A stretch of 47,376 nt of DNA from Roseburia sp. (GTDB taxonomy: Bacteria; Bacillota; Clostridia; Lachnospirales; Lachnospiraceae), in NCBI GenBank assembly GCA_023667765.1, contig JAMOZS010000017.1:1-47376 (forward strand), given 5' to 3'. The notes under the pieces are model-generated. The model saw only the letters and a program-made list of their open reading frames with translations, searched no databases and was not told the origin of the DNA. Positions 32,398-43,735 of the stretch are shown piece after piece. A program made the translations under genes and the position numbers. How positions within the stretch are numbered: the stretch's first letter is position 1; each line of letters starts with the position of its first letter.

Positions 32398-33069
32398 TCA
32401 CGACTGCTTAGAAATAGTGGCTATGATGCCTTTGTGGTCTGACAGCCGCTTATCGCAGTTCCATTCGCTAATCTGTATAGCTGTATTAGAAACAAATGAT
32501 TTAGAAATGGCAATGTGGTCTATGCACTCTGGGATGTCCCGAGTCAGAAGTTCAATTTGATTTTGGGCGAATGATTGGAGAAGGGAAGTGCGGGCAAAAT
32601 TTGTGAAGTAGTAGTTGCCTGCAAAGCTACAATTGAAATCTCCGCACATGCAAAGATTTGAGCCGGAAGCAGCCAATCGTTCGATATCTGCGAGTTGCGA
32701 CAGCAGGTCGGGTTTAAAAGATGAATCTCTATTGCCATAAATTCCAATAATGGTTCCATAGACAATTAGACTGCCTCGCTCTGTTCCCAACTCAACACAC
32801 AGCGAAGTATACTGGTCATACGTTGGATACTGCTTGATGCAAGGGAAGTTCGTGTAGATAGAGACTCGATTTTCAGAGGGTATATATAACTCAGGCTGTA
32901 TGTTAGCGGGCGGTGGAGTTTGAAAGCAGTAGCGAAAAATAGGGCGGAGGCGACTATCAGTCTCGGTCAAAACGAGGATGTCGGGTGCCGCTTGTTCACA
33001 GGCCAACAGGATTTCATCGATGGCGTTCTTGTGTTTTAGACGTTCGACATTCCAGGTAGCGATTTTCAT
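32398..33069 (-). CDS. endonuclease/exonuclease/phosphatase-fold protein
   Basis: Encodes 223 residues. EEP-fold motifs are complete: MKIATWNVERL (start), VLTETD (metal-binding Glu, about 34-39), CGDFNCS (catalytic Asp-x-Asn, about 143-149), IDHIAIS, and LSDHKGI (catalytic His, about 210-216). The family includes DNA-repair exonuclease III and various RNA and nucleotide phosphatases, so the substrate cannot be told from sequence. It is the last gene of the ART-HD/HEPN operon, 23 bases behind the HEPN gene, without a clear ribosome site of its own. It may process nucleic acid or the product of the ADP-ribosyltransferase. Confidence 0.88.
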   Translation of the reverse strand: MKIATWNVERLKHKNAIDEILLACEQAAPDILVLTETDSRLRPIFRYCFQTPPPANIQPELYIPSENRVSIYTNFPCIKQYPTYDQYTSLCVELGTERGSLIVYGTIIGIYGNRDSSFKPDLLSQLADIERLAASGSNLCMCGDFNCSFAGNYYFTNFARTSLLQSFAQNQIELLTRDIPECIDHIAISKSFVSNTAIQISEWNCDKRLSDHKGIIATISKQS

Positions 33070-33092: not shown

Positions 33093-34238
33093 CTAAGGTT
33101 TTTCCTGAATGTTCCCATTATCTGAATCGGACTCAAGACACTCCAAATTTACCAGAAAATCGGTAAAAAGAAGGGCATTTAGAGCTGCCTTTTTTGAAGG
33201 ATAGCGCGTAAACAAGCCATGCGCGGCAACGTGACGTCCTGGGACATCAGGTATGGCTTCTTCTGGCTTAGTGCAATGGTACATGATGCATGTGTCATAA
33301 AAGGCGGATATTATTGCGGAACGTTCGTTAGGCTCTATCAGCTTAGCAAAAGCCTCGCGTAGTTTCTTACTGCTGATTTGCTCTGTAATGTGCGCCTTCT
33401 CTTTGATGAGACCTTCCCAGAGGGTGGGGAGCACCGACACTACGATGCCATATTCTTTTCGACGATAGGCATACAGGGTCTCTTTCAGGAGCCTGCGGAT
33501 ATGGGTAGGGAGGGGAAGCTCCTTCCATTCCTCCAACAACCAATCGGTGTACCTCATCCCAAGATGACGAAAGATAAACTGGTCGAGAGCATCATTCTTT
33601 TTATCAGCTGGGTCATTTGCATCGACAAGGCTACATAAAGGCTTGAGTTTGCTGAGCGGGAGTGAGAGAATTGCAGAGGGACACCAGTGGGCATCAAGGA
33701 GGACTTGGGAGCATTTGCGTTGGCAGGAGATAATAAAATCATGGAACGACTGCCTGGGCTCCTCCGTTATGATGCGGTTCAGCTGCGAGAGATAGGATTG
33801 CGAGGCAAAAGAAGAGACAATTGTTTGAATCGGGGCAAGGTTGTTTTGGACAAAGACACTCTCTTCGATGTTTTCAGGCAAGGATTGCCGGTATAAATCA
33901 TACGTGCGCTGAACTTCGGCAGCATCAATTTGAGCTTGCAGCAGATATGGAGGGGGTGCCATATATGGTGGCTTGGCACCAAGGGCAGCCATTTCATGCT
34001 TAAAATGGTCGATTTCTGGCCGCAAGGCATTAAAAGCCTCTTGGTCTTGAATGGCTTGCTGTATGGCAGGAGCGAGAGCGCCGTACTCCTCGGCCATCTG
34101 AACCTGCTTTTTTATATTTTCCCGGTTTTGCATGATACGCTCAATGGCGGGTTGTGAAGCCACCTTTGAGGCTGTGTTCATGGCTTGTGTCATCTTATCT
34201 GATTGGAGCCAGGGCATCGATGGAGGGTTCCAAGGCAT
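33093..34238 (-). CDS. HEPN-type ribonuclease candidate
   Basis: Encodes 381 residues. The C-terminal part carries RHVAAHG at about 335-341, an RxxxxH motif followed by a helix with aligned hydrophobics (KKAALNALLFTDFLVNL). This is the active-site signature of HEPN RNases found in toxins, Abi proteins and CRISPR effectors. The family version usually reads N-R-H-x-x-x-H-G, which fits. Residues 45-110 are coiled-coil-like. The middle part is helical and uncharacterised. The start at 34238 has AAGGAA at eight bases. Second gene of the operon, 50 bases after ART-HD. The likely role is RNA cleavage on a signal; the HEPN call rests on the motif. Confidence 0.72.
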   Translation of the reverse strand: MPWNPPSMPWLQSDKMTQAMNTASKVASQPAIERIMQNRENIKKQVQMAEEYGALAPAIQQAIQDQEAFNALRPEIDHFKHEMAALGAKPPYMAPPPYLLQAQIDAAEVQRTYDLYRQSLPENIEESVFVQNNLAPIQTIVSSFASQSYLSQLNRIITEEPRQSFHDFIISCQRKCSQVLLDAHWCPSAILSLPLSKLKPLCSLVDANDPADKKNDALDQFIFRHLGMRYTDWLLEEWKELPLPTHIRRLLKETLYAYRRKEYGIVVSVLPTLWEGLIKEKAHITEQISSKKLREAFAKLIEPNERSAIISAFYDTCIMYHCTKPEEAIPDVPGRHVAAHGLFTRYPSKKAALNALLFTDFLVNLECLESDSDNGNIQEKP

Positions 34239-34294
34239 AGACACACTTCCTTCCTCCGGTTAGGGCGTAGGCTATAGGGGCTTTATCTCATGAT

Positions 34295-35686
34295 TTAGTG
34301 TTCATAGCGAACCTGTTCTAAATAGATTTTTGAAATATTGAGTAGCGTTTTAGAAACTGGGAGCCGGAGCCGGGTGAAGTCCAAGTCATGGAAGCCAAAG
34401 CGTATCCTGTCCAGAGCATCAGCATCTTTAAACACATCAAACAGGAGCTTTGAGCGTGTCCGATTTTTGCTCAGGGCACGGTCAGACTGGATGCGGGCGT
34501 AGCCATCCTCATCGGGTCGGCAGTGGTACTCAATGATAAATGCCACTAACGGGTCTATACGCTCCTCATTGCTTTTGTAATAATCTGCGGCATAATAGCC
34601 ATGTTGAGCATCTTCGCCATCATTGTCTCTCATGGTATCATGATAAATAGCGGCCATGGCCAGCACCCGCTGGTCGGACTTTGGCAATTTCAGGTAGTAT
34701 GCGATGGTAAGTGCCAACAGCATGACCCGGGCCTCATGAGAGCCACCATGGATATCGGATTCCATTTTGAACTCAAGCTCATCGAGGAGGTCAAGGTGTT
34801 CCAGATATATTTTTTGAACCGCCGGAATGATATCTGAGCAATCTTTCTGGCCCTTTAGCTGGATGATTTCTTCAATTTTTGCGTTATGGGGAACCACGAT
34901 AACCTCTTTTTCGCGGCCATCCAAGCAACAGTTGATGATGTCCTTTTTAAGAACTGCTGCCTTGGCAATGTAGGCACCATCATTCCCAAGCCGACAGGCA
35001 AAGAAACTTGCTGTTTTGGCATCAATCGTCCAGGAATATGCTTCGCTCGGAGAAGTAGAGACATCATTGCTTCCGCCTCGGTAAACAGTCAGTGTTTCTG
35101 GGAGATTTCCAAGCTGTTTGTCTATTTCAGCCTGGTCTTCGGGCCTTTTGGACGCAAGGATTTTTTCCATTGTAGTGCTGGATAATTTGTTGAATCCATA
35201 GTCTGAGATGAAGTAATATGAAAAGAATAACCTAAACAAATCCGGAACTTTCTCGGAAATATTCGGATACCGCTCAAAGAGTAGCTCAAAATACTCCATC
35301 CGCATGGTGTCAGTCAAGGCAGATAGGGAGGATGCAAATTTCCACTGAGCCACATCGGTCTCGCATACATTGATGGCCTTCAGTAGGGTGGGAATTCGAT
35401 TTTTGCCAGCGTGCACATCAAGCATCAGAAAAGGAATGTTAAACGAGCAGACTGCCAGAGTTTTAGGATTAAAGTAGATTGAGTCTACTGAAAGCGAGGA
35501 TGTGTAGTAGATATTTGTCGGGTCAATACCAGGGAAATGTTGTTTGAATTCGCCATTAGTAATGACGAAAGCGTAGCCTTGTGCACGGTATTCCTCCACA
35601 TCTGCTTCGGTCTGAATGGAGGATTGGGGGACAAGCTTATCGAAACCAACGTTTTTTGCTCTGAGCAAGACCTTTTCTGGATTCAT
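34295..35686 (-). CDS. ADP-ribosyltransferase-HD domain fusion
   Basis: Encodes 463 residues. Residues 198-265 look like an R-S-E type mono-ADP-ribosyltransferase: R203 in TVYRGG, the S-W-T strand at 218-220 (AYSWTIDAKTASFFA), and E259-K-E261 before VIVVP. Residues 311-430 form an HD domain: HGGSHEARV (H313, H317), AAIYHDT (H349-D350) and FKDADALDRIR (D421-D423). Residues 1-195 are not recognised. HD domains are metal phosphohydrolases. One protein thus seems to join transfer of ADP-ribose with a hydrolase, which could be self-limiting, or the HD could act on another nucleotide. The start follows GAGGTG. First gene of the operon. Confidence 0.8.
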   Translation of the reverse strand: MNPEKVLLRAKNVGFDKLVPQSSIQTEADVEEYRAQGYAFVITNGEFKQHFPGIDPTNIYYTSSLSVDSIYFNPKTLAVCSFNIPFLMLDVHAGKNRIPTLLKAINVCETDVAQWKFASSLSALTDTMRMEYFELLFERYPNISEKVPDLFRLFFSYYFISDYGFNKLSSTTMEKILASKRPEDQAEIDKQLGNLPETLTVYRGGSNDVSTSPSEAYSWTIDAKTASFFACRLGNDGAYIAKAAVLKKDIINCCLDGREKEVIVVPHNAKIEEIIQLKGQKDCSDIIPAVQKIYLEHLDLLDELEFKMESDIHGGSHEARVMLLALTIAYYLKLPKSDQRVLAMAAIYHDTMRDNDGEDAQHGYYAADYYKSNEERIDPLVAFIIEYHCRPDEDGYARIQSDRALSKNRTRSKLLFDVFKDADALDRIRFGFHDLDFTRLRLPVSKTLLNISKIYLEQVRYEH

Positions 35687-35727
35687 TCGGACACCTCACA
35701 GACCGTCGTGGTTGATTTTTCCTTGCT

Positions 35728-35947
35728 ATACAGAAGGGAGGACTGCGACACCGTAGTGCCACTCGCCCTCCCTTTAAATGGTTGGTTTTTCCGTCGCTCG
35801 CCGACCCTCAGCTCCATCTGAGATTACACTCATTCTGCTGCACACATTTCGGGAGTTACCGTCGCCCGCCGACCCTCCGGCCCAATGTCCGGCATACATT
35901 TCGAGTTTTGCGTGCCAACCCACGGACGAGATGACGCTCGTCGACCT
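35728..35947 (-). ncRNA. tandem small RNA gene, copy A
   Basis: About 220 nt, read on the minus strand from just after its own promoter. The 5' hairpin is GACGAG/CTCGTC (35937-35942 with 35925-35930), loop CGTCAT. A long-range helix GGTTGG/CCAACC (35920-35915 with 35785-35780) encloses smaller hairpins and two copies of the 13-base GTCGGCGRGCGAC. The last stem is GGGAGG/CCTCCC (35772-35767 with 35741-35736); inside it GGCAC and GTGTC pair around TACG, a C(UNCG)G tetraloop. After the stem comes TTCTGTAT, a weak U-tract, 40 bases before the ART-HD gene. See copy B for covariation. Confidence 0.75.
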
Positions 35948-35953
35948 ATCGTA

Positions 35954-35982
35954 AGTTTACAGCATGGCACCAATTATGTCAA
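35954..35982 (-). promoter_or_regulatory. promoter of small RNA copy A
   Basis: On the minus strand, TTGACA (35982-35977), a 17-bp spacer, TAAACT (35959-35954). The same boxes and spacing occur in copy B; the spacers differ. Confidence 0.85.
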
Positions 35983-36022
35983 GTCCAAGGGCGCATTCGA
36001 TTGTTCCTAAGTCGCATATGAA

Positions 36023-36244
36023 CAAAAAGAAAGGGGAGGACTGCAACGCCGCAGCGCTACTCGTCCTCACCCTTTGTGGTTGGTTTTTCTGTCGTCCGCC
36101 GACTTTCAGCTCCTTCTGGTGTTAAACCATTCTGCTGCAGGAATTTCGGGTTTTTCTGTCGCCCGCCGACTTTCCGGCCCAGAGTCCGGCAGCCATTTCG
36201 GATTTTATGTGCCAACCCACAGGTGAGATGACGCCCACCGACCT
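36023..36244 (-). ncRNA. tandem small RNA gene, copy B
   Basis: About 222 nt, the same design as copy A at a period of about 298 bp. The 5' hairpin is GGTGGG/CTCACC, where copy A has GACGAG/CTCGTC: two pairs change on both sides and one becomes G-U, loop CGTCAT unchanged. The inner terminal stem is AGCGC/GCGTT around TGCG (copy A GGCAC/GTGTC around TACG), again with two compensated pairs. GGTTGG/CCAACC is kept. The terminator stem GAGGAC/GTCCTC is followed by CCCTTTCTTTTTG, a strong U-tract. Covariation and the UNCG loop place the RNA on the minus strand. No known class recognised. Confidence 0.78.
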
Positions 36245-36250
36245 GAGTAC

Positions 36251-36279
36251 AGTTTACGCTAAAATACGTTTCCTGTCAA
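36251..36279 (-). promoter_or_regulatory. promoter of small RNA copy B
   Basis: On the minus strand, TTGACA (36279-36274), a 17-bp spacer, TAAACT (36256-36251). The -35 box overlaps the stop codon of the phosphodiesterase gene upstream. Confidence 0.85.
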
Positions 36280-36791: not shown

Positions 36792-37229
36792 CTATTTATT
36801 TGAACTATAATCGTCCTTCAGTTCGAGCAACGCTCCATCTTCTGGGAAAGCGTCTGCTGGAATTTCGCCTGTGACGTTAAAAAGTTTCCCGTCCCAGGTA
36901 ACAAACAGGAGGGAGCTGGAATGTCTTTCGAATACCTCACGGATGCTAATTTCATCATTAACGAGAGATAAAAGTACCGCGTCAGAGACATCGCACACCA
37001 ACCACTCCGAATACATCATGCAACATGAGCACAGATATTTTTGGCCCTTTCCGTCTACACACACAAATAAAATCGGTTGTCCATCAAGTTTATAAAAGGT
37101 CCAAACCCGAAACAGCTCTCCGAGTTGTGGTAGCTCAAAATACTTTTTCAGCGGCAGAGTATTGGTTGCCTCAAAAAGCGGGCGCACCCACTGGGGGATG
37201 CTCGCTTTGCTTATTTCTGTTTTTCCCAT
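36792..37229 (-). CDS. hypothetical protein
   Basis: Encodes 145 residues, a compact alpha/beta protein with a CSCC cluster (about residues 67-70) in a strand rich in Trp and Tyr. It resembles small uncharacterised proteins that often sit next to nucleases in defence islands, but I cannot give a family with certainty. The ATG follows GGAGG. It is transcribed before the YfcE-like gene in the same direction. Confidence 0.6.
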   Translation of the reverse strand: MGKTEISKASIPQWVRPLFEATNTLPLKKYFELPQLGELFRVWTFYKLDGQPILFVCVDGKGQKYLCSCCMMYSEWLVCDVSDAVLLSLVNDEISIREVFERHSSSLLFVTWDGKLFNVTGEIPADAFPEDGALLELKDDYSSNK

Positions 37230-37483: not shown

Positions 37484-40342
37484 ATGATAAATTGTGAAAA
37501 ATTAAAGCGTGTTCTTGATGGATACAAGCAATATTTTCCCAGCCACTGGGAAGATGAAAAATATAAATGGGAGGCCATTAAGCACTTCCAGGACAATTGG
37601 GACATCAAAGCCGAAAACTTTGGTGAGATGTTTAAGCAAGCCACAGAGAAGACCTACAATTTGCTGGCCTCTGGCTATGCCTATCCTCGCACCATGATAA
37701 TGAACTTTGCCAAAGCAGATGATGAAGCTGTTCGGCAGATGTTTCGCAACCTCTTCGATGAATCCCGCGACCTTGGGGAACGAGTGGCAGCATTTCAGGC
37801 AGCGGCAGAAGAAATTCGGGCTACACATGATGACGGTACATGGCGAAACCATTACCAGAACACGAACGCAATCAGTACATACCTATGGTTGATGTTTCCC
37901 CAAAAATATTACATTTATAAATATGAGCTATTCCGGGATGTAGCAGAGGAATTGTCCTCAGACTACAAAGCAAAACGCAATGGTTCCGTTGAGACGATGA
38001 TTGGCGGCTTTGTAATGTACGATGAAATTTGTGCCGTGATACAGCAGGACGCAGAAATCAAGAAACTGCTGTCCAGCGTGCTGACAGATTCCTGCTATCC
38101 AGACCCGGAACTCAAAACTGTGACCATAGATGTGGGCTTTTATCTCAGCCGGTTCTATTTGGAGGAGGCAAGAGCGGCCCAGGAGGAAGCAGGTTGGTTC
38201 CCGAAGAATTACACGCCAGGGCTGACTTCCGATGAGTGGGAGGAGCTTCTGGGAGATACTTCGATTTTTACCATGAACGCCTTGCAAATCATGAAACGTA
38301 TGAAGGATTACGGTGGGCAGGCAACCTGCAAACAGCTATCCATCAAGTACGGAGAGACACCTAATTTCTACAATGCCGGTTCTACCGCTTTGGCTCGGAG
38401 GATTGCGGAGAAAACCGACTGTCCACTCATGTCCACGGATGCAGATGCTCAGCAATGGTGGCCTGTTCTATATATAGGTAAGGCGCTCCAAAACAGTGAT
38501 GAAGGAACGTATGTTTGGAAACTTCGCCCGGAGTTAAATGAGGCGTTGGATAGGATAGATATGTCTGACGTCCCGTTATACCTGGACAACTCTCCCGCCA
38601 TCTGGAAAATCAGCCATGGTACTGAGTCTACAGGTATTTCTGATGAGAATAAGGCAATATTTGAAGCACGTAATGTTGTGGTTGTTCGTAGGAAAACGAA
38701 AGCAAAGGCAATGTCGAAGATTACCCAGGGGCAAGCATTCATGGATGGCATCCATAAGGGTGATTACTTCTACCTTTGCTACGGCAGCAGCATCCAACTT
38801 CTCGGGCAATTCACTGGTGACAAGCCTGTACTTAACACAGAGTTGGAGGATGGGTGGTACGAACGGAAGTACCGCCTCATTGCGAAAGCAGTGTGTTCCG
38901 AGCCATATACAGGAACGAAAAAGTGGTGGACTCCAAATGACAATTCTACCTGCATCAAGGTGGAGAAATCTGACAGTGGTTTATTCGAGGAATTGATTCT
39001 GGCACCTTATTTTGGCATGAGTCTGGGTGAACTGTTTGGAGATGCGGCTCCATCGCACGGCTATTGGTGGCTTAACGCCAATCCTGCGATTTGGAGTTTC
39101 TCGGATATCAAGGTCGGCGAGGAGGAGGGCTATACCCTCTATAATGATAATGGGAACAAACGTAAGGTATTTCAAAACTTCCTTGATGCCAAAGTCGGGG
39201 ATATGGTTATTGGCTATGAATCGCTTCCCAGCAAAAAGGTTGTGGCCATCTGCCGCATTAGCCAAGCGAACGATGGCGAGGCAATCTACTTTGAGAAGGT
39301 AGAAGGGCTTTCGACACCTATCGAATATCAAACCTTGCGGGAATGCCCTGAGTTGGCCAAGATGGAATTCTTCATTCAGCCTCAAGGAAGCCTGTTTAAA
39401 CTCAGCCAGGGTGAGTTTGATTTCATCATGGACATTATCCGAGAGTCCAACCCCATTAGGCAGCCAGACACAACGCTTCCCAAGTATAGCAAGGATGACT
39501 TTTTGAAAGCTGTCTATATGGAGAGGGAGCGTTATGATGTACTGGAAGCACTTCTTCGCAACAAGATGAACGTCATCCTCCAAGGAGCACCCGGCGTGGG
39601 TAAGACGTTTACGGCCAAGAAATTGGCCTATGCCATGATGGGAGTGCAGGATGATTCCTGCATTGAAATTGTCCAGTTCCACCAGAATTATTCGTATGAG
39701 GACTTTATTATGGGTTATCGCCCGGATGGGGCAGGCTTTAAACTCACGGAGGGCGTCTTCTACCGATTCTGCCAGCTGGCCGCCAATCACCCGGATAAAC
39801 CATACTTTTTCATCATTGATGAAATCAATCGCGGGAATATGAGCAAGATTTTTGGGGAGCTTTTGATGCTGATTGAGAGGGATTACAGGGGCACGAAAGC
39901 TACGTTGGCATATAGTGGGATGCCGTTCTCTGTGCCTGAGAACCTTTATATTATCGGCATGATGAATACAGCGGACCGCAGCCTTGCCATGATTGATTAT
40001 GCCCTTCGTCGGCGGTTTAGCTTTTTCGAGATGCTGCCAGGATTTGGCTCTGAGGGCTTCATGCAGTATCAGAGCAGTTTCGCAAGCGAGACCTTCGACG
40101 CTCTGATTGAGCAAATCAAAGCGCTGAACAGGGAAATCGCGGAGGATAGGTCCCTGGGCAAGGGTTTTCAGATTGGCCACAGCTATTTCTGTGGGCGGAA
40201 GCCAGGAGAATGCACCACAGATTGGATGCGGTCGGTAGTGGAGTTTGATATTCTGCCAATGTTGGCAGAGTATTGGTTTGATGAGCCAGCCAGGGTGCAG
40301 CGGTGGGAAAAGAATTTGCGTGGGGTGTTCGATGACCAGTGA
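37484..40342 (+). CDS. mcrB: McrB-type AAA+ GTPase with EVE domain
   Basis: Encodes 952 residues. The motor is at 680-935: Walker A GAPGVGKT (701-708), QFHQNYSYEDFIMG (731-744), Walker B FFIIDEINRGN (775-785), and MNTADRS (827-833), the hallmark of McrB GTPases. Residues 524-645 are an EVE domain (HGYWWLNANPAIWSF, VGDMVIGYES), a PUA-like reader of modified bases. A second, weaker PUA-like part may lie at about 375-510 (KGDYFYLCYGSSIQLLGQF). The first 370 residues are helical. McrBC cuts DNA with modified cytosine, and the EVE part probably sets the target. The GGGGGG site precedes the ATG. The stop overlaps mcrC. Confidence 0.92.
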   Translation: MINCEKLKRVLDGYKQYFPSHWEDEKYKWEAIKHFQDNWDIKAENFGEMFKQATEKTYNLLASGYAYPRTMIMNFAKADDEAVRQMFRNLFDESRDLGERVAAFQAAAEEIRATHDDGTWRNHYQNTNAISTYLWLMFPQKYYIYKYELFRDVAEELSSDYKAKRNGSVETMIGGFVMYDEICAVIQQDAEIKKLLSSVLTDSCYPDPELKTVTIDVGFYLSRFYLEEARAAQEEAGWFPKNYTPGLTSDEWEELLGDTSIFTMNALQIMKRMKDYGGQATCKQLSIKYGETPNFYNAGSTALARRIAEKTDCPLMSTDADAQQWWPVLYIGKALQNSDEGTYVWKLRPELNEALDRIDMSDVPLYLDNSPAIWKISHGTESTGISDENKAIFEARNVVVVRRKTKAKAMSKITQGQAFMDGIHKGDYFYLCYGSSIQLLGQFTGDKPVLNTELEDGWYERKYRLIAKAVCSEPYTGTKKWWTPNDNSTCIKVEKSDSGLFEELILAPYFGMSLGELFGDAAPSHGYWWLNANPAIWSFSDIKVGEEEGYTLYNDNGNKRKVFQNFLDAKVGDMVIGYESLPSKKVVAICRISQANDGEAIYFEKVEGLSTPIEYQTLRECPELAKMEFFIQPQGSLFKLSQGEFDFIMDIIRESNPIRQPDTTLPKYSKDDFLKAVYMERERYDVLEALLRNKMNVILQGAPGVGKTFTAKKLAYAMMGVQDDSCIEIVQFHQNYSYEDFIMGYRPDGAGFKLTEGVFYRFCQLAANHPDKPYFFIIDEINRGNMSKIFGELLMLIERDYRGTKATLAYSGMPFSVPENLYIIGMMNTADRSLAMIDYALRRRFSFFEMLPGFGSEGFMQYQSSFASETFDALIEQIKALNREIAEDRSLGKGFQIGHSYFCGRKPGECTTDWMRSVVEFDILPMLAEYWFDEPARVQRWEKNLRGVFDDQ

Positions 40343-41399
40343 CAAAGGAATATTCATCAAAAATATTTATTATATGCTGTCCTATGCCTTCCAAGTTCTG
40401 AAGCAGTCTAACTATGAAGATATTGCGGCTGAGGATTTTGAAATGGTGCAGGACCTGTTTGCGGCGATACTGGCTAAGGGTGTGGCGCAGCAGCTGAAGC
40501 AGGGCCTGTACCGGGAGTACATCACCAAGCATGAGACAATGGCGGTCCTGCGAGGTAAACTGGATATGCCGGAGACCATCCGTAACCGAATCCAGCGGAA
40601 GCAGAAGCTGGCCTGCGAATTTGACGAACTTTCGGAAAACAACCGATATAATCAGATTTTAAAAACCACGATGCACTATTTAGTGCGGGATAGTGGGGTC
40701 AAGCCAGACCGCAAGGTGCAGTTGAGTAAAGTGCTGGTGTTTTTTGACGGTGTTGCGCTCCTGGACCCGGCAGGTATTCAATGGGGCAGGCTCCATTACC
40801 AGCGCAGCAACAAGAACTATGAAATGCTGCTCAATGTTTGCTATTTTGTGCTGGAAGGGATGCTCCAAACTACGGAGAAAGGCGAGTATCGAATGGCTTC
40901 TTTCTCTGATGAACATATGTCCAGGCTTTATGAGAAGTTTATCCTGGAATACTACCGATATCACCACGGCTATCTGACAACGGCAAAGGCTGCTCAAGTC
41001 AAATGGGATTTGGTTGGGGAACAGGATGAGTCGATGGTACGGTTCCTGCCGGCGATGCAGACTGATATCTACCTGCAAAAGGGCGAGAAAATTCTTATCA
41101 TTGACGCCAAGTATTATGGCCGGACACTTCAGCAGCAATTTGATAAATACACGCTGCACTCAGGGAATATCTACCAAATCTTTACATATGTGAAAAATCA
41201 GGATAAGGACAATACTGGGAACGTATCTGGACTCTTGCTGTATGCCAAAACTGAGGAGGCCATTACGCCGGATTGCTCATTCAACATCGGAGGAAATCAA
41301 ATTGGGGCAAAAACGCTGGATTTGAATACAGATTTCCGAGTGATAGCGGCTCAACTGGATAAGATTGCAGAGCAGCACTTTGGAAAGGCATCGGAATAA
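40332..41399 (+). CDS. mcrC: McrC-type nuclease subunit
   Basis: Encodes 355 residues. The C-terminal part has a PD-(D/E)XK core, D in MQTDIYL and D-A-K in ILIIDAKYYG, which supplies the cleavage activity. The N-terminal half (IKNIYYMLSYAFQVL onward, GKLDMPETI) matches the McrC/LlaMI-type arm that contacts the McrB ring. The start at 40332 overlaps mcrB by 11 bases, as usual for this pair. A longer frame to 40245 is a shadow of mcrB. Confidence 0.9.
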   Translation: MTSDKGIFIKNIYYMLSYAFQVLKQSNYEDIAAEDFEMVQDLFAAILAKGVAQQLKQGLYREYITKHETMAVLRGKLDMPETIRNRIQRKQKLACEFDELSENNRYNQILKTTMHYLVRDSGVKPDRKVQLSKVLVFFDGVALLDPAGIQWGRLHYQRSNKNYEMLLNVCYFVLEGMLQTTEKGEYRMASFSDEHMSRLYEKFILEYYRYHHGYLTTAKAAQVKWDLVGEQDESMVRFLPAMQTDIYLQKGEKILIIDAKYYGRTLQQQFDKYTLHSGNIYQIFTYVKNQDKDNTGNVSGLLLYAKTEEAITPDCSFNIGGNQIGAKTLDLNTDFRVIAAQLDKIAEQHFGKASE

Positions 41400-41584
41400 A
41401 GAGTCGCTCCCAAATGCCTATGAAGGAAATGTGCTATTTTGGGCGTGGATTACTCATCTGATATGCAGTTTCAGATTTTGTGGTCATGCTTATTCGACAG
41501 GGAGTAACCAAAACGGTCAGCCCTTCTATCATACACATCGGAACATCTTGACCGGAAGCCACAGAGAGAAGGGAGGGCTCGCAT

Positions 41585-43735
41585 TTGAACTTGTTACAAG
41601 GGCTCAATGATGCTCAGCGAGAGGCCGTTACCACGACAGAGGGCTTTGTGCGGGTGATTGCCGGGGCAGGCTCCGGCAAGACCCGGGCGCTCACCCGTCG
41701 ATTCGCCTTCCTGGTCAATGAGCTGGGCATTCTGCCCGGGAACATTCTCTGCGTTACGTTCACAAACAAGTCTGCAAACGAAATGCGGCAGCGCATCCAT
41801 CAGCTCACAGGGGACAACGATACCGGATATATCAACACCTTCCATGGCTTTTGTGTGTCTATCTTACAGGAGGATAGCCACGCCTTTCAATATCCGAAAA
41901 GCTTTCTGGTGCTGGATAATTCGGATATCGATGCTATGCTACAAATCATCTATGATGAGCGGGGGCTGACGCTGCGGGATATGACCTTCTCGGCAGCCCG
42001 GGATATGATTGAGATTCGCAAGCTGTTCAAGGAGCCGAAATACTATGAGGACATGATAGCCATGTCCCTGGAGACTTTAAAAGAAAAGTATGACCGGGCA
42101 ACTGCATCGGAGGATATCATTTTCTACGGCTACCTATACCAGGAAAAGAAGTGCTTCGGCCTGGATTACAATGACCTCATAAAATTCTCACTCTACATCT
42201 TCCAAGAGCGCCCTGATATCAAACTCAAATGGCAGCAACGTCTTGAATACATAATGATTGATGAATTTCAGGACATCGACCAGCTCCAATATGAGTTGAT
42301 GGAGGTGCTGTGTGGATACCACAAAAACCTGTTCATCGTTGGGGACCCAGACCAGACCATCTACACTTGGCGGGGTGCCAATGTGAAATATCTGCTGGAC
42401 TTTGACAAGGAGTTTCCCGGAACACAGACCGTTATGATGATGGACAACTACCGCTCCACTCCGGAAATCCTGGCTGTGGCGAACTCTCTCATTGAGCACA
42501 ATAAAAATCGCATGGAGAAGGAGCTGGTGCCTGTCCTGCCTTCCGGGGCACCGGTGCTGTGCCACTTTGCCGACAGCCAGGAAGGGGAAGCGCAGTGGAT
42601 TGTCGGGGAAATGGTCAAGCTCCATGAGGAGGGTGTGCCATATAAGAACATGGCGGTGCTGTACCGGGCACATTACGTTACCAGGGCAGTGGAACAGGTG
42701 CTGTTGAAGGAGAAGATTCCCTACACACTATACAGCGGAACACAGTTTTACAACCGAATGGAGATTAAGGACGCTCATAGCTACCTGCGTATGATTGCCT
42801 ATAAGGACGATTTGTCCTTCCAGCGCATCGTCAACAACCCGAAGCGGAATATGGGTAAGCGACGCATGGCCTTCCTTCAGGAATATGTGGACAAGCATGG
42901 ATGTTCCTTATACCAAGCGCTGTTGGACACTCTGGATGACCCAATATTCAAAGGCACGAAGGCGCAGCAGTTCATTTCCTTGGTAGAGGTATTTGCTGGG
43001 GGTTATGATGGCCGGCCTGTATCGGAAGTGTTGTCAGCAATCCTTAACGAGAGCGGCTACGAAAAGATGCTCCGAACCAAAGGTGACCAGGAGCGGCTGG
43101 ACAACCTGGCAGAGCTGAAGCAGGCGGTTTATGAGTTTGAAACCACCTGCGGCGAGGAGGTGACGTTGCCACACTACCTGAACCATGTGGCCCTGTTCAC
43201 CAACGCTGACACCGCAGAGCAGGGGGAGAAGGCGCGGTTGATGACCATCCATGCCTCCAAGGGCCTGGAGTTTCCGTATGTGTTTCTGTGTGGCATGAAC
43301 GAGGGGATTTTCCCCTCCAGAAAGGTGCGAACCATTCAGGGTATGGAGGAGGAGCGGCGGCTGGCCTTTGTGGCGATGACCAGGGCAGAGAAGGGGCTGT
43401 ACCTGTCTGAGTCTGATGGGAGAAACTATGAGGGTGCTCCCCGATACCCCTCCCGCTTCCTGCTGGACATCAATCAGTCTCTGCTAACATTCACGCTGCC
43501 ACCGCAGGAAGGTCTTATCCAGGCGGCAAAAGATTACATCGACCATGCTCAAATCGACCTGCGGGATGAGGATAGCAACTCATTGATGGAAGCGGGGCAG
43601 CGGGTGAAGCACTCCACATTTGGTTTGGGAACAGTACAGGCAGTGGATATCGACAAAGGTGCCTATTTAGTCCAGTTCGATGAGTTGCAGACACCCAGAA
43701 AGATTTCCTTCCGAGCCAGGTTGGAGCCCGTATAG
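41585..43735 (+). CDS. UvrD/PcrA-type superfamily 1A helicase
   Basis: Encodes 716 residues. Motif I is GAGSGKT (27-33), Ia is VTFTNKSANEMRQRI, II is DEFQDID, III is GDPDQTIYTWRGA, IV is NYRST, V is TIHASKGLEFPYVFL, and VI is VAMTRAEKGLYL. The C-terminal HSTFGLGTVQAVD part is the Tudor-like domain of PcrA. It should unwind DNA 3' to 5'. It starts with TTG after GGGAGGG. It stands in the same direction as mcrBC, 185 bases away, without a terminator between, so it may work with it. A housekeeping pcrA usually lies elsewhere; this may be an extra copy linked to defence. Confidence 0.9.
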   Translation: MNLLQGLNDAQREAVTTTEGFVRVIAGAGSGKTRALTRRFAFLVNELGILPGNILCVTFTNKSANEMRQRIHQLTGDNDTGYINTFHGFCVSILQEDSHAFQYPKSFLVLDNSDIDAMLQIIYDERGLTLRDMTFSAARDMIEIRKLFKEPKYYEDMIAMSLETLKEKYDRATASEDIIFYGYLYQEKKCFGLDYNDLIKFSLYIFQERPDIKLKWQQRLEYIMIDEFQDIDQLQYELMEVLCGYHKNLFIVGDPDQTIYTWRGANVKYLLDFDKEFPGTQTVMMMDNYRSTPEILAVANSLIEHNKNRMEKELVPVLPSGAPVLCHFADSQEGEAQWIVGEMVKLHEEGVPYKNMAVLYRAHYVTRAVEQVLLKEKIPYTLYSGTQFYNRMEIKDAHSYLRMIAYKDDLSFQRIVNNPKRNMGKRRMAFLQEYVDKHGCSLYQALLDTLDDPIFKGTKAQQFISLVEVFAGGYDGRPVSEVLSAILNESGYEKMLRTKGDQERLDNLAELKQAVYEFETTCGEEVTLPHYLNHVALFTNADTAEQGEKARLMTIHASKGLEFPYVFLCGMNEGIFPSRKVRTIQGMEEERRLAFVAMTRAEKGLYLSESDGRNYEGAPRYPSRFLLDINQSLLTFTLPPQEGLIQAAKDYIDHAQIDLRDEDSNSLMEAGQRVKHSTFGLGTVQAVDIDKGAYLVQFDELQTPRKISFRARLEPV

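Follow-up and report, generated by a model that had tools for sequence, protein, structure and literature searches.

Tandem ring-closed pseudoknot RNAs in a Roseburia genome belong to a family often followed by predicted PBECR4 nuclease genes

Two tandem small RNA genes on the minus strand of a 47,376-nucleotide stretch of Roseburia sp. DNA (contig JAMOZS010000017.1; hereafter the window, meaning this whole stretch) belong to a newly found family of structured RNAs, unusual in its ring of pseudoknots, for which a likely partner and a likely job can now be named. In other genomes, the gene directly after this RNA is often that of PBECR4 (PF18813), a predicted endoribonuclease of the BECR fold (E 7.5e-33 for the protein at locus L003). 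Judging from sequence, the ring RNA is there probably the upstream half of a two-gene system, serving as an antitoxin-like RNA inhibitor of the nuclease. Within the literature searched, PBECR4 is best read as a nuclease family without a previously known RNA inhibitor.

In the window, the RNA copies are flanked on one side by a metallophosphoesterase gene (36761-36276) and on the other by a run of three genes on the strand of the RNAs. An earlier note, made from the DNA letters alone, had placed two RNA blocks here on the minus strand, each preceded by TTGACA-N17-TAAACT; both blocks are present at that place, 297 nt apart with cores of about 165 nt each, and so are both promoter-like sites. The features, all on the minus strand, are as follows.

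36251..36279, minus strand: promoter-like site of copy A, TTGACA-N17-TAAACT, 10 of 12 consensus bases
36075..36239, minus strand: RNA copy A, two-module core; covariance model R1, 185.3 bits; 40/40 pairs
36217-36212 (GGTTGG) with 36078..36083 (3' strand, CCAACC), minus strand: copy A PK1, the closing pseudoknot
36199..36202 (strand UCCG, module 1) with 36098-36095 (loop CGGA, module 2), minus strand: copy A PK2
36162..36165 (loop CGGG, module 1) with 36150-36147 (strand CCCG, module 2), minus strand: copy A PK3
36030..36075, minus strand: terminal hairpin of copy A, UGCG loop, -30.5 kcal/mol, z -6.2; T tract to 36024
35954..35982, minus strand: promoter-like site of copy B, TTGACA-N17-TAAACT, 10 of 12 consensus bases
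35777..35942, minus strand: RNA copy B, two-module core; model R1, 177.6 bits; 40/40 pairs
35902..35905 (strand CUCG) with 35800-35797 (loop CGAG), minus strand: copy B PK2, two pairs double-changed relative to copy A
35850..35853 (strand CCCG) with 35868-35865 (loop CGGG), minus strand: copy B PK3
35734..35774, minus strand: terminal hairpin of copy B, UACG loop, weak T tract, -29.9 kcal/mol, z -5.6
34295..35686, minus strand: HD-domain gene in the PBECR4 slot (PF01966, E 6.8e-7), starting 91 nt after the core of copy B
33093..34244, minus strand: 383-aa protein, no family found
32398..33069, minus strand: endonuclease/exonuclease/phosphatase family protein (PF03372, E 1.4e-8)

The bit scores of the two copies are not independent, since both were among the five sequences from which R1 was built. 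Two promoter-like sites were found against 0.3 per shuffle. A terminator hairpin had also been described for each copy. Both terminal hairpins are stable, with loops of the UNCG type; the T tract is good after the copy A hairpin (TTTCTTTTT) and poor after that of copy B (TTCTGTAT), and neither appeared in a strict scan for terminators, which found 0 against 1.3 expected.

The two copies are identical at 131 of 165 aligned positions and differ at 34. Among their 40 base pairs, five are changed on both sides (two of these in PK2), one on one side and 34 not at all, with none broken; these compensated changes indicate that selection has acted on the fold along both lineages. The compensated 5' hairpin and the GGTTGG/CCAACC long-range helix are as the earlier note described them, the helix being a pseudoknot (PK1), and two further pseudoknots, PK2 and PK3, had been overlooked.

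Each RNA molecule consists of one to three modules, about 50 nt long, that pseudoknots close into a ring. A module comprises a strand, a hairpin, a second hairpin whose stem is 4 bp long and whose loop consists of a single G and four further bases, and an A-rich linker. Loop 1 forms pairs with the module 2 strand, loop 2 reaches far upstream to the module 1 strand, and the circle is closed by an additional long-range helix between the P2 loop and the 3' end (PK1). Both loop pairings are strictly Watson-Crick in 62 of 67 distinct two-module RNAs (67 of 76 rows; duplicates, the second L169 match and any row gapped in the loop or strand columns were excluded). Where the two modules differ (n = 64), 59 RNAs pair perfectly in the ring register and none does so in the swapped one. 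The loop/strand sorts include CAGG/CCUG, CGGA/UCCG, GGAG/CUCC, AGAG/CUCU and CGAG/CUCG. Tandem modules are alike in plan and not near-identical; by eye, most rows have two, L048 has three, and L061, L070 and L071 have one. The loci L046 and L061 share flanks around two modules and one, respectively, an instance of module gain or loss. At L074 and L075, two RNAs face one another across about 2 kb; both have an altered, longer module 1, and one precedes PBECR4.

Single-sequence folding gave weak signals for both copies (z -1.6 and -1.3) and would alone miss the structure; the evidence for the fold is comparative. A five-sequence alignment (A5), fitted to R1, has 40 pairs in nine helices, three of them pseudoknots, with 200 of 200 cells paired and double changes in 18 of 40 pairs, compared with 24-47% pairing in slid controls. 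Because R1 was built without P2, PK2 and PK3, support for these three helices is independent of the fit. In a larger alignment of 69 distinct homologues (of 76, identical rows being counted once), 97.4% of 2662 cells are paired and double changes occur in 29 of 40 pairs; the weakest helix is P2, at 79-85% paired. None of 500 shuffles matched the larger alignment on four of five measures, the fifth (further pair types) being unremarkable (reached by 424/500 shuffles for the five sequences and 67/500 for the 69 homologues). Chance pairing was rejected on the shuffled and slid controls, and the earlier claim of a structured minus-strand RNA with its own promoters is supported.

That the RNA fits no known class is likewise sustained, as neither window copy matched any Rfam family at the gathering cut-off or at E values up to 10. 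CRISPR-DR25, mir-207 and viral xrRNA scored far below their Rfam cut-offs and were rejected, and the models for abiF RNA (RF03085) and drum (RF02958) gave no match to the window RNAs. A sequence search of the PDB returned 0 matches, as did a search of viral contigs with two exact DNA patterns. BLAST against 200 genomes of the same family recovered three homologues besides those in the own genome, and R1 located the RNA in 35 of 397 same-family genomes, the own included, with 42 matches in the window and the fetched neighbourhoods. A third match within the own genome is weak (17.1 bits, E 0.6). When the draw was widened to 398 genomes from across the phylum, model R2 found the own genome and one other (L227). 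The named relatives are mostly Lachnospiraceae and other Clostridia, many of them metagenome assemblies.

The association with PBECR4 is observed from both directions. Starting from the RNA in the 397 genomes, 20 of 41 matches are followed on their own strand by a PBECR4 hit at a distance of 87-202 nt, and no profile hit in any other orientation was found within 1.5 kb of these 41 matches, broken pieces aside. When broken PBECR4 pieces are included, the figures are 25 of 42 on the same strand and 2 of 42 on the opposite strand only. The remaining 15 of 42, the two window copies among them, have no nearby PBECR4, which counts against the pairing, and the L227 RNA from the wider Bacillota draw has no PBECR4 in the available 760 nt downstream. 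In the opposite direction, with the protein as query, a same-strand RNA was found at 75 of 80 named loci, 57-208 nt ahead of the protein match, a figure that describes one clade only because the query PBECR4 genes were chosen for following the RNA; the five clade loci without it (L194-L196, L198, L199) all belong to the six poorest protein matches. The pairing extends to mobile elements, with the RNA preceding PBECR4 in 6 of 6 viral contigs, in Erysipelothrix phage phi1605 (73.1 bits) and on a Macrococcoides bohemicum plasmid (57.6 bits); at a Eubacterium eligens plasmid PBECR4 locus (L221), neither ring RNA nor drum was found within reach.

Around the RNAs, a promoter-like site precedes 45 of 71, compared with 3 of 71 in a control stretch, and a hairpin with a T run follows 66 of 76 (controls 7/71 and 7/75) and, in a second set, 36 of 42 (controls 7/39 and 8/41). 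About ten relatives keep the RNA beside a PBECR4 gene that is broken, split or severed by an insertion. Broken, split or truncated PBECR4 was observed after the RNA at L042, L047, L048, L053, L056, L060, L062, L065, L067 and L070; at L060, it appears by eye to be separated by an opposite-strand transposase-like gene. The 17 RNAs without a same-strand PBECR4 retain 556 of 595 scored pairs and the other 25 retain 885 of 917, showing that most of the fold is preserved, slightly less well, even where the partner is missing. By eye, the RNA follows directly after a purD-like gene at L046, L047 and L061, with PBECR4 pieces at one of these loci and DUF3791-type genes at two, perhaps representing a shared site with exchanged genes.

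PBECR domains have been predicted to be RNases (PMC5512222), PBECR4 not being named in the available sections of that paper. No paper naming PBECR4 was found in a literature search that covered few subscription papers and, among preprints, those in PubMed Central; within the same coverage, none of the matches listed linked PBECR4 or drum to an RNA-inhibited toxin, and in PMC8632094 the terms toxin, PBECR and drum each have 0 occurrences. Against Pfam, with E values up to 1, the PBECR4 protein matches PBECR4 and no ToxN family. PADLOC gave no match above noise (four proteins, best E 0.031), and no named family was returned by NCBIfam, PHROGs or PADLOC, the best PHROG (function unknown) having an E of 3.7e-5.

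Drum, an RNA reportedly first described in a 2017 paper, often fills the same slot before PBECR4 genes of other clades. Of 30 PBECR4 loci, 18 lack the ring RNA; R1 gave these a best score of 14.3 bits (E 0.018), and that match lay on the wrong strand. With L107 left out as lying at a contig edge, all 17 that were scanned with Rfam carry drum. Starting from drum in the 397 genomes, 30 of 44 matches (3 of the 44 below the Rfam cut-off) are followed by PBECR4 at 14-142 nt. Altogether, 94 PBECR4 rows, pieces included, divide into 21 with the ring RNA, 32 with drum and 41 with neither within reach; among 18 of these 41 that were inspected, two (L204 and L206) turned out to carry divergent ring-family RNAs. 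By eye, other hairpin or tandem-pseudoknot-like RNAs precede PBECR4 at L202, L203, L208, L209, L211, L213, L214 and L215, with tandem hairpins at L211 and L213 whose loops match a strand just downstream; such RNAs are possible third and fourth types. The own genome also holds a drum RNA above the cut-off (54.3 bits, contig C18 13494-13618, L200:1995-2119) without PBECR4. This orphan lies, by eye, downstream of a resolvase-like gene, and a second, sub-threshold drum match was seen at C18:33586-33693. The consulted parts of PMC8191799 (a k-turn study) and PMC7657543 treat drum as a structure without a stated function.

In the proposed inhibitor system, the RNA would be made in excess over the PBECR4 nuclease because, as proposed, its terminator is leaky; the modules would bind the nuclease and hold it inactive, as type III antitoxin RNAs do; and if the RNA disappeared, as might happen when a phage halts host transcription, the nuclease would be freed. 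Retention of the RNA beside disrupted nuclease genes suits a toxin that loses its gene first. An alternative is that the RNA forms a working part of the nuclease, as scaffold, guide or activator, in an effector particle rather than a toxin held by an inhibitor. A strongly kept, ring-closed fold that needs no cutting to monomers is compatible with such a particle, as are the kept loops and A-rich linkers of the modules; however, a terminator-like hairpin before the enzyme gene fits type III inhibitors, and persistence of the RNA in several relatives with PBECR4 broken or missing is easier to explain for an inhibitor. This alternative appears unlikely.

It seems still less plausible that the RNA is a cis-acting leader only, which controls read-through into whichever gene comes next. 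The distance from core to gene is similar for ten intact PBECR4 genes (57-88 nt) and the HD gene in the window (91 nt), and AbiF RNA, according to the part of PMC12373285 consulted, lowers the expression of its own gene too. Against a leader stand the two complete window copies with separate promoters, the stand-alone RNA at L043, which lies between genes on the opposite strand and keeps 40/40 pairs, and the strong link to one protein family.

The window RNAs had been described as lying upstream of a defence operon, which is unproven: downstream are the HD protein, the family-less 383-aa protein and the endonuclease/exonuclease/phosphatase, and PADLOC reported nothing on these three genes. On the plus strand, at 37484-43735, a McrB-like AAA/EVE gene, a McrBC component and a UvrD-type helicase with GajB-like PADLOC matches were observed. 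A 145-aa protein at 36792-37229 weakly matches PD-T4-10_B (E 0.0011). An alignment of four HD proteins, read by eye, contains invariant YRG / S-W / E-x-E residues that resemble an ADP-ribosyltransferase motif and suggest an ADP-ribosyltransferase-like protein, a call unconfirmed by Pfam. Four scanned HD homologues (L006, L007, L223, L224; a fifth, L011, was left out) gave no ring RNA (best 7.2 bits, E 0.98), and the usual partner elsewhere is PBECR4. The HD operon was accordingly rejected as general partner. Re-use of the RNAs in this genome as regulators or inhibitors of the HD protein is improbable. The HD gene does occupy the nuclease slot and the L046 orphan RNA is followed by DUF3791 and DUF3990 genes, the latter with a weak, below-cut-off ART-PolyVal match (E 0.0032), but the scanned HD homologues lack the RNA and the ADP-ribosyltransferase call is one of motif resemblance that Pfam does not confirm. 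At L061, a DUF3791-like gene follows the RNA by eye, and no DUF3990 was identified.

Returning to the inhibitor system, the window would hold an orphan pair, with intact RNAs, PBECR4 not found and the HD gene in its slot. The own genome gave 0 PBECR4 matches (the assembly, in 101 contigs, is 93.7% complete, so that about 6% may be missing), and no PBECR4 pieces were found within 4 kb downstream or 3 kb upstream of the window RNAs; because no PBECR4 was found in this genome, the partner was invisible to the earlier note. Most simply, the window RNAs are retained or still useful antitoxin RNAs. More tentatively, and with the odds somewhat against it, PBECR4 may be the core of a large, so far unrecognised family of RNA-inhibited toxins with several unlike pseudoknot RNAs (ring, drum and more) occupying one slot. 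The ring would then be the cyclic toxin-antitoxin assembly in a form that closes on itself, and orphans would act as stand-alone guards when PBECR4 elements arrive or would now serve ADP-ribosyltransferase-like effectors that have taken them over. The orphan Rfam RNA drum gains a testable function, and if the inhibitor system is real, a BECR-fold nuclease family present in gut bacteria, phage, plasmid and viral contigs would be added to the RNA-inhibited toxins.

Among known systems, type III toxin-antitoxin loci (ToxIN, CptIN, TenpIN) share the order of promoter, repeated pseudoknot RNA, terminator and nuclease gene on one strand, as described in the part of PMC5086642 consulted, and the module pseudoknot with its one-base first loop resembles that of CptI in the section consulted of PMC4627078. 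A terminator, tandem units and a pseudoknot fold are all found in the ring system; a promoter and RNA directly upstream of a same-strand toxin gene are found in the relatives and not in the window, which has no PBECR4. In contrast to type III systems, the nuclease is PBECR4 and belongs to no ToxN, CptN or TenpN family by Pfam and PADLOC, and the RNA is self-closed by long-range pairing, has one to three modules of about 50 nt and gives no sign of cutting to monomers. Drum has a separate Rfam model, which the window RNAs do not match, and occupies the same slot before other PBECR4 genes. AbiF / RCd22 (RF03085) differs in its Abi_2/AbiD/F protein and in an RNA motif unmatched in the window, and is alike in that a toxic protein is preceded by a small RNA, equipped with promoter and terminator, which binds and neutralises the protein (PMC12373285, as far as consulted). 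AvcID, in the portions of PMC10511110 available, involves a deaminase and its authors predicted no terminator between the genes; as proposed for the ring system, its RNA inhibits an enzyme that is not ToxN, and it has been classed as type III.
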